From the NCBI GenBank assembly GCA_949130485.1, contig OX422195.1, positions 122,381 to 186,380 on the forward strand: DNA of 64,000 nucleotides, given 5' to 3'. Numbering within the stretch: position 1 is the stretch's first letter; the number at the start of each line of letters is the position of its first letter. Positions 18-3,000 of this stretch are shown here, piece by piece. Source of the stretch: Agelas oroides (lineage: Eukaryota > Porifera > Demospongiae > Agelasida > Agelasidae). Below the pieces are notes generated by a model. That model was not told the DNA's origin and ran no database searches. It saw only the letters and a list, made by a program, of their open reading frames with translations. The position numbers were made by a program, and so were the translations under genes.

Positions 18-3000
18 ATGGAAGGAATGGATGTAAGTGAGACCATGTGCGAGGCGTCCTCATCCTAGCTAGATTTAATATGCAGTATAACGCGCGGGAA
101 AACGCGATACTGCAAGCGATCCGTGCTGGGGTTGGTTTTGGGTCTGGGACCGAGACTAGAGCTAAGCCTCCTCTGCACTATACTATATCTCTGCAGCGAC
201 TGGAGGCCGTGAACCCTGCAGCCAGGGCTCGGTCGCAACTCCCCCACATCCCCCTCATCCCTTCCAGTCATGATCAGCCCTCACCACTTTACAAGGTAGA
301 CTAACTCCTCTCGTTCCCTTTTGTCTGAGGAGACTAGTAAGTGTACTTGGCAATAGCCAACCTTAAACAGCCCCCCTTCCTCCCACACAAACACTAGCTG
401 GTTCTTCAGAACCTGGAAAAGCCTCCGATTATGAAGCCTGCCTCTTGGACAAGGGCTGCCCCTTTCAAAGAAGAAAAGTATCATCGCACACCCTCAGAGT
501 CTATTGCCAACAACTATACCCCAACTGCGAGCCACCTCAAGATTAGGGCTCTCGGGAGGAGACCAAAGTCACTCTGTATCCTCTAAGTGGTGACCTAGTC
601 TCGCAGGCCACGAGACTCGCGGTGACCACTCCTGGGGCTCCTTGTAGAATAAAACTTACCAGTGTGATCTGGTTAACCTTTCTTTCCTTAACTCCTCCTC
701 TCTTAGCTCCAGGAAAGTCTCCCTCCCCCCATCAACCTCCCCCACTCCGTGCCCGACCCCTCCCCCCTCCTATGGTCCCCGGTTATCATGAGCATCAGAG
801 AGTGGGGATCGACCCCTCCCCCTCCCGGCCACTGAGCCCTGGGGAGCAGTTCTCACACTTGAAGCGACAGGAGGGATGGAGGGAGAGCGTTGCCGGACAC
901 CCAACTGAGAATGACCTTGAGGTAGGCTATAGTTAAACACTAGCTGATGCATTCATCACCTTACATGGCGAACTTCTCTCTGCAGCGCTACAAGTACTAT
1001 GTCAGTGAGGGGGTACCTGCGGCGGACATTGCTCCCATGCCTGAAGACACAATGGCCCGAGTGCATGCTCTCCTCCTGCCAGAGCTAGTGCGTAATCCAG
1101 AGTGGGCGGGGTTACGACAGCTCCTGCATGAGGAAGTCCAGCGGGACTATGTGCACAGTCTACAGAAAGCTATCGTGGACTATGTGCTCATGGACTCCTC
1201 GGAGATGGCTCGGCTGAAGATTGTGTCAGTCCCCCAGGGGTTTCCCCACCGCACAGTCCGTGCCCCCATTCCCTGGCATCCCAGTCTAAGTGCAGCCCGA
1301 GAGGCACAGGCTGCGCAGCTCTTCACAACCAACAGAGTCATGGCCGAGCTGCAGCAACTGTGGCAAAACAAGTGAGGAGTATGTATTATGATGTGACGAC
1401 AGGGGTATCCCCATTGTCTGTATTGACAAGTTTATCCCACTGAGGAGTATTATGATGTAAATGACAGGAGCATCCCCATTGTCTGTATTGACAAGTTTAT
1501 CCCACTGAGGAGTATTATGATGTAAATGACAGGAGCATCCCCATTGTCTGTATTGACAAGTTTATCCCACTGATAGACATCATAGTGAAAGTGAATGCAA
1601 ACCTTGTGCCCAATACGTACATGTAGGTATTCCAAGGTGCATTTCGTTGACCTGGAAGCGCTACATCTACGTCTGTCTGAACCACCGATGAAGCCGGCTG
1701 AGTTTGAAGGTCTAGTGAAATCCCAGTGTGCCCAGGCTAGAGACACCCTGGAGAAACAGTGAGTCTTTAGTCTAGTGAAATCCCAGTGTGCCCAGGCTAG
1801 AGACACCCTGGAGAAACAGTGAGTCTTTAGTCTAGTGAAATCCCAGTGTGCCCAGGCTAGAGACACCCTGGAGAAACAGTGAGTCTTTAGTCTAGTGAAA
1901 TCCCAGTGTGCCCAGGCTAGAGACACCCTGGAGAAACAGTGAGTCTTTAGTCTAGTGAAATCCCAGTGTGCCCAGGCTAGAGACACCCTGGAGAAACAGT
2001 GAGTCTTTAGTCTAGTGAAATCCCAGTGTGCCCAGGCTAGAGACACCCTGGAGAAACAGTGAGTCTTTAGTCTAGTGAAATCCCAGTGTGCCCAGGCTAG
2101 AGACACCCTGGAGAAACAGTGAGTCTTTACTCTAGTGAAATCCCAGTGTGCCCAGGCTAGAGACACCCTGGAGAAACAGTGAGTCTTTACTCTAGTGAAA
2201 TCCCAGTGTGCCCAGGCTAGAGACACCCTGGAGAAACAGTGAGTGTTTACTCTAGTGAAATCCCAGTGTGCCCAGGCTAGAGACACCCTGGAGAAACAGT
2301 GAGTCTTTACTCTAGTGAAATCCCAGTGTGCCCAGGCTAGAGACACCCTGGAGAAACAGTGAGTGTTTAGTCTAGTGAAATCCCAGTGTGCCCAGGCTAG
2401 AGACACCCTGGAGAAACAGTGAGCCAATCAATAGTGACACTTTCTGGAGCAGAAGAAAGGTTTTACCAACTGTGTCCTGCTGCTCTCAGAAGTGGACTCT
2501 GTTTCTCTGTAGGTGGGTGGTGGAGTGTGGGGAAGTGTTCAGGACACACCGCTCCTGCTGGGCCCACCTGATTCCCTCTGCACCCTCACAATCAGCTGTC
2601 CTGGCAGAACACTTCTTCAACTGTGCCTGCAGCCTCATGGCTCGGCAGCTGAGGGACACGGTAGAGAACTCCCTCACTGACCTTGTCACCTTCCTGTCTC
2701 TGTATAAGGTGTGCGGGTGGGAGAGAGGAGGAGGAAGAGGAGGAGGGGAGGAATGTTGCGTGAAGAGGGTTAAAGCCAGCTAGTAGCATGACTGTGTGCT
2801 TCTCTTCACTTGCAGAATGGCAACGACTACGAGGGAGAGTTTGAAGACCTCATGTTTGTCTCCCAGCCTGTGAGTTATACCCTATCTACACACCCTGCCT
2901 CCCCCCTCACGCCCTTGCATACACTCCCCCACCCCCACACCCCCCCCCACACCCCCTCCTCTCACATGCTCCTAGGTGCTCTTTGTTGAGCTCGTAGTGA

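Follow-up and report, generated by a model that had tools for sequence, protein, structure and literature searches.

A close precedent for the locus described here is the human ABCA7 gene. According to the available text of the source (PMC5954066), its intron-18 VNTR starts at the exon-18 donor and canonical splicing proceeds from the first copy. When the second donor is used instead, one unit stays in the transcript and introduces a stop; this one-unit retention stands at about 2% (on our reading of “respectively” in the source) and is independent of array length. Longer arrays raise exon 19 skipping, and the combined alternative transcripts exceed the canonical one in 90% of BA10 samples, mainly through next-exon skipping, so donor arrays need not be harmless (available text of PMC5954066). 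How one splice site is chosen over another has been tested with two-site minigenes: the available text of PMC9225289 reports that, flanking introns longer than about 250 nt tip the choice between competing donors of near-equal strength towards the exon-side donor, and shorter ones towards the intron-side donor, as a bias and not an absolute rule.

Within the window (the whole 64,000-nucleotide stretch that was analysed), two donor arrays, referred to as array 1 and array 2, lie in a single gene. The features on which the following analysis draws are:

986..1371, forward strand: upstream dynein coding exon, ending in phase 2 (gene model, homology)
1383..1573, forward strand: intronic array, 65 bp x 3, beginning 11 nt past the donor at 1372 (TRF, gene model)
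1627..1758, forward strand: dynein coding exon, its last 48 nt inside the array-1 unit (unit reading, model, homology)
1710..2423, forward strand: array 1, exon end plus donor, 60 bp x 11.9, 12 copies (TRF, unit-by-unit reading)
1759..2512, forward strand: intron if the first donor of array 1 is used, 754 nt; 94 nt if measured from donor 12 at 2419 (model)
2513..2708, forward strand: next dynein coding exon, 196 nt (model, homology)
5110..5413, forward strand: dynein coding exon before array 2 (model, homology)
5412..6161, forward strand: array 2, 30 bp x 25, 25 donors (TRF, unit-by-unit reading)
6240..6367, forward strand: dynein coding exon after array 2 (gene finding, homology)

Our hand-made gene model comprises 13 exons from 986 to 5413 in one open frame, with GT-AG introns except for one GC-AG intron (likely the 69-nt intron at 4504-4572). 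Its translation matches the Pfam family DHC_N2 (1.3e-42), and in phmmer searches all 783 model residues match a 4069-aa chain of entry 9fqr (1.1e-197), which is labelled “putative malate dehydrogenase 1B” and which its length and alignment say is a dynein. The second match is to DNAH3 (8j07_g3, 2e-165, best stretch residues 300-783). With similarity extending over the tail and DHC_N2, the predicted protein fits a DNAH3-like axonemal dynein heavy chain. The gene model and the homology alignment also agree that the array-1 unit is the end of a dynein exon plus its donor, as an earlier note made from the letters of this DNA had proposed.

Like the ABCA7 VNTR, array 1 begins where an exon has its canonical donor and comprises a dozen or more copies; the donor in its first copy appears to be the canonical one for a coding exon. 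The ABCA7 unit, as given in the available text (PMC5954066), is 25 bp long, runs from the GT and contains no coding bases, whereas the dynein unit includes 48 coding nucleotides; ABCA7 arrays have 12-427 copies and are polymorphic in people, whereas the 12 dynein copies are known from one assembly. Two further systems are comparable as far as the available parts of their sources go. In human segmental-duplication genes (PMC2812944), tandem repeats across an exon-intron boundary likewise alter splice-site content, but copy number there differs between paralogs and novel introns arise, whereas the dynein gene presents one locus with an enlarged intron. Tandem duplication is also the source of extra splice sites in intron gain by tandem genomic duplication (PMC3443670), but that model makes a new intron from duplicated exonic AGGT, whereas at array 1 an existing intron seems to have grown. 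The last copy of array 1 ends up 94 nt before the normal acceptor, which suggests, for this species only, an old intron.

Tandem Repeats Finder (TRF) places array 1 at 1710-2423 with a period of 60 and 99% matches, and its sequence occurs at a single place in the 259-Mb, 141-contig assembly. Its 12 donors fall at positions 1759 + 60k. Counting units from 1711, there is no difference among copies 1-6; in copies 7-10 column 60 has C in place of G, in copies 9 and 11 column 55 has G in place of C, and copy 12 is the same as the others to column 53, after which it continues into unique sequence. Variation among copies 1-11 is therefore confined to two tail columns (55 and 60), and the 48 coding bases plus GTGAG are common to 12/12 copies, with GTGAG in exact register. 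The earlier description of identical coding parts with changes in the intronic tail is literally right, yet just two columns vary; both would fall within the last 12 of 60 by chance with a probability of 0.037, and the tail-only variation is weak evidence of anything. That every copy offers the same donor is true of GTGAG in all 12; donors 1-11 share one 9-mer and score equally, but donor 12 (GTGAGC, with C at +6) scores below them in our home-trained weight matrix, itself built from the predictions of our own gene finder (126 donors, 153 acceptors). Reading past donor 1 in phase 2 gives Q-stop, donors 2 to 4 read out as ...LEKQ-stop, and the identical stop precedes each later donor, which bears out the claim that the frame is kept by copy 1 only.

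Array 2, 3 kb downstream, is a second donor array in which AAGTGAGTAGG is identical in 25/25 copies. Reading past its first donor in phase 2 gives K-stop, and its intron measures 826 nt from the first donor and 106 nt from the last. Copies 11-25 show the pattern (abc) five times, in 90-bp blocks, so array 2 grew at least partly by such blocks. Together with the array-1 variant string (aaaaaabbcbd), which is not simply nested, this block pattern makes very recent expansion or ongoing conversion of array 1, as the earlier note had it, plausible. The 65-bp array upstream of array 1 differs in that the donor at 1372 is not repeated, since its later copies read CTGAGG.

No insertion interrupts the 9fqr alignment at either joint, 1758/2513 of array 1 (LEKQWVVEC) or that of array 2 (HLEKLEEIG), so the protein needs the first donor of each array. 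The earlier note had left two branches, reliable use of the first donor by the spliceosome or abundant NMD transcripts; the former, drawn from frame and homology, appears the better branch, since the alignment fits array 1 only if its first donor is used.

Donor arrays were also sought genome-wide by scanning for three spaced AGGTGAGT or AAGTGAGT motifs, which gave 124 and 216 matches. Set against the same patterns read backwards, these genome-wide raw counts show no clear excess of donor-like triples (124 vs 111 and 216 vs 238; by component, 52+72 forward vs 79+32 backwards for AGGTGAGT, and 156+60 forward vs 129+109 backwards for AAGTGAGT). Among the matches listed, 19 loci were picked by eye (13 AGGTGAGT and 6 AAGTGAGT), of which four (L012, L016, L019, L021) were dropped as low-complexity before edge inspection. 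Five of the 15 inspected loci, picked among the matches listed, are donor arrays at coding exon ends with a Pfam match, a fraction that gives no rate because the selection favours donor arrays by design:

L009: glycerol kinase donor array (FGGY_N)
L011: RPN13-like donor array (RPN13_C)
L013: donor array of an Intu-longin-domain gene (Intu longin-like domain 2)
L029: donor array of a JmjC gene (JmjC)
L034: donor array of a FERM gene (FERM_M, 22.4 bits, slightly under the cut-off of 23.8)

Two more loci (L010, L032) had no Pfam match, and eight (L014, L015, L017, L018, L020, L030, L031, L033) had no clear coding flank by eye; our gene finder placed an exon over L014 and L015. Counting the five from the matches listed, this makes seven donor arrays at coding exon ends in six genes, dynein being represented twice. 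In 7/7, reading past the first donor leads to a stop within 9 residues. Homology across the joint was checked in 4/7 (both dynein arrays, glycerol kinase and RPN13-like), the next exon being unconfirmed for L013, L029 and L034. In the FERM array, of about 10 units, AAGTGAGT occurs 4 times and AAATGAGT 3 times, that is, with decayed decoys. Any functional meaning of the identity among unused array-1 copies is not supported, given decayed decoys in other arrays such as this one. Seven 10-kb stretches at fixed positions contained 6 complex arrays and few predicted exons, which is not enough to estimate a rate. Among literature titles and abstract starts, no account of donor arrays across the whole genome of a species was recognised, in a search whose coverage excludes most subscription journals.

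Two of these loci have further features. At L009 (4830-5129 in reverse-complement coordinates) the glycerol kinase unit of 22 bp mostly reads CTCTGCAG|GTGAG, an acceptor-like motif abutting the donor motif and resembling a recursive splice site. At L013 (5818-6663) a 32-bp x 26 array follows the Intu-longin exon, with open pieces of 31 residues in all three forward frames.

We consider it probable that array 1 is a neutral minisatellite whose unit took in a donor by chance, that exon definition picks the exon-side donor, and that the array is functionless. Direct observation covers the array, the reading frame, the joint in the homology alignment and the recurrence in other genes; the remainder would run as follows. 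Tandem duplication of a segment that by chance spanned the dynein exon-intron boundary would have founded a minisatellite, which would have grown by copying one or more units at once. Because the duplicates would sit beyond the true exon end, within the intron, they would have stretched the latter from about 94 nt to 754 nt and added 11 decoy donors to it. With long neighbouring introns (255 and 754 nt), the exon would be recognised across itself and its exon-side donor chosen; the decoys would be nearly silent, perhaps a few percent of transcripts keeping one unit and being degraded, and the array itself would have no function. The introns flanking the array-1 exon (255/754 nt) and the array-2 exon (138/826 nt) are consistent with exon definition and first-donor use, on a 250-nt threshold that comes from other systems and that the 255-nt upstream intron barely exceeds. 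By analogy with ABCA7, we would expect a small share of one-unit retention at array 1, and perhaps skipping of the frameshifting 196-nt exon 2513-2708 in some transcripts.

Intron length also supplies an argument against this neutral reading. The introns that the last donors of arrays 1 and 2 would define (94 and 106 nt) lie near the median of the dynein stretch with arrays collapsed (106 nt), and where introns are of about 106 nt, intron definition would favour the last donor of array 1, with its 94-nt intron; survival of the two-copy stage is likewise not accounted for. A more specific proposal, which we regard as doubtful, is that array growth protects its own gene: a short intron would be pushed past the intron-definition length, exon definition would take over, and the exon-side donor would then beat any number of identical decoys. 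If so, donor arrays in several genes would form a natural dose series for splice-site proximity rules. More generally, conserved genes of this genome carry arrays with between 3 and 28 donors, and at these the two proximity rules, exon-side and intron-side, make opposite predictions that are simple to tell apart; were the first donor to prevail in every array, exon definition would hold even where a gene's introns are close to 100 nt. Donor arrays would also be a simple route to intron growth without harm to the protein.

Array 1 could instead be a regulatory poison switch, in which donors 2-12 are often used and the resulting stop-containing, degraded transcripts set dynein output. The presence of GTGAG in 12/12 donors, 11 of them with the same score, and the immediate stop after every later donor are what such a switch would look like, and an intron-centric proximity rule (available text of PMC9225289) would favour the last donor; but decoys decay in the FERM array, and in ABCA7 the one-unit retention of about 2% is constant across array length (available text of PMC5954066), and we judge the switch improbable. 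An assembly artefact, with one or few copies in the animal, is less probable still: at 714 bp the array is short relative to long reads (general knowledge), the internal variants are structured, and the same layout recurs with other units at other loci. That unit-end TTTAG serves as an acceptor, yielding a variable number of hidden 48-nt cassette exons (16 residues), is barely credible even though the 48 nt are in frame and stop-free and the gene finder at low intron cost picked an exon at 1831-1878, for that exon was dropped at higher cost, TTTAG sits at the 4th percentile of the 153 home-trained acceptors and is equalled or bettered by 55% of AG sites in the window, copies 7-10 read TTTAC, and the dynein alignment has no repeat at the array-1 joint.

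As to why arrays should lie at splice sites, placement by chance was modelled by dropping a random unit into the dynein gene (14 exons, 13 introns) with arrays collapsed and exon-only placements discarded, which assumes that exon-only duplications are purged. Under this null, a unit touching an intron spans a splice junction in 67% of cases if it is 60 bp long and in 40% if it is 30 bp long, donor and acceptor sides being hit equally often. In the dynein and TBCD genes, manual comparison with the exon models shows that 3/5 arrays passing the complexity filter span a junction, or 3/6 if the array at 17575-17764, which failed the filter, is counted. Since the neutral share is already this high, no targeting mechanism is needed, and a targeted origin of arrays at splice sites was set aside. 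Selection on decoys was sought in the variable columns, where the signal is too weak in both arrays: 2/60 columns vary in array 1 (the 0.037 given above for both in the tail) and 4/30 in array 2 (0.14 for none in the donor). The 17575-17764 array itself is intronic, has a 31-bp unit and starts shortly after an exon end.

The TBCD array involves an acceptor:

24572..24701, forward strand: TBCD exon start plus acceptor, 62 bp x 2.1 (TRF, homology)

Of its duplicated acceptors, only the second, exon-side one keeps the frame (exon from 24660), and this second acceptor gives a gapless joint in the alignment to the solved TBCD. The 40-bp x 10.9 array at 62076-62513 was considered as another acceptor array and rejected: by eye, the exon of the SH3 gene starts near 62627 after a better acceptor, and the array was taken as intronic and left uncounted. 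Each of its units carries an acceptor-like CTCACAG, and the array lies in an SH3-domain gene, about 110 nt upstream of what is likely the true acceptor. At 29804-30154, 30687-30923 and 40029-40508 are arrays of 41-bp units in which an acceptor-like TTGCAG or TTGTAG is followed, after a few bases, by the donor-like GGTGAGG. The longest array of the window, 28 bp x 125, occupies 35771-39269.
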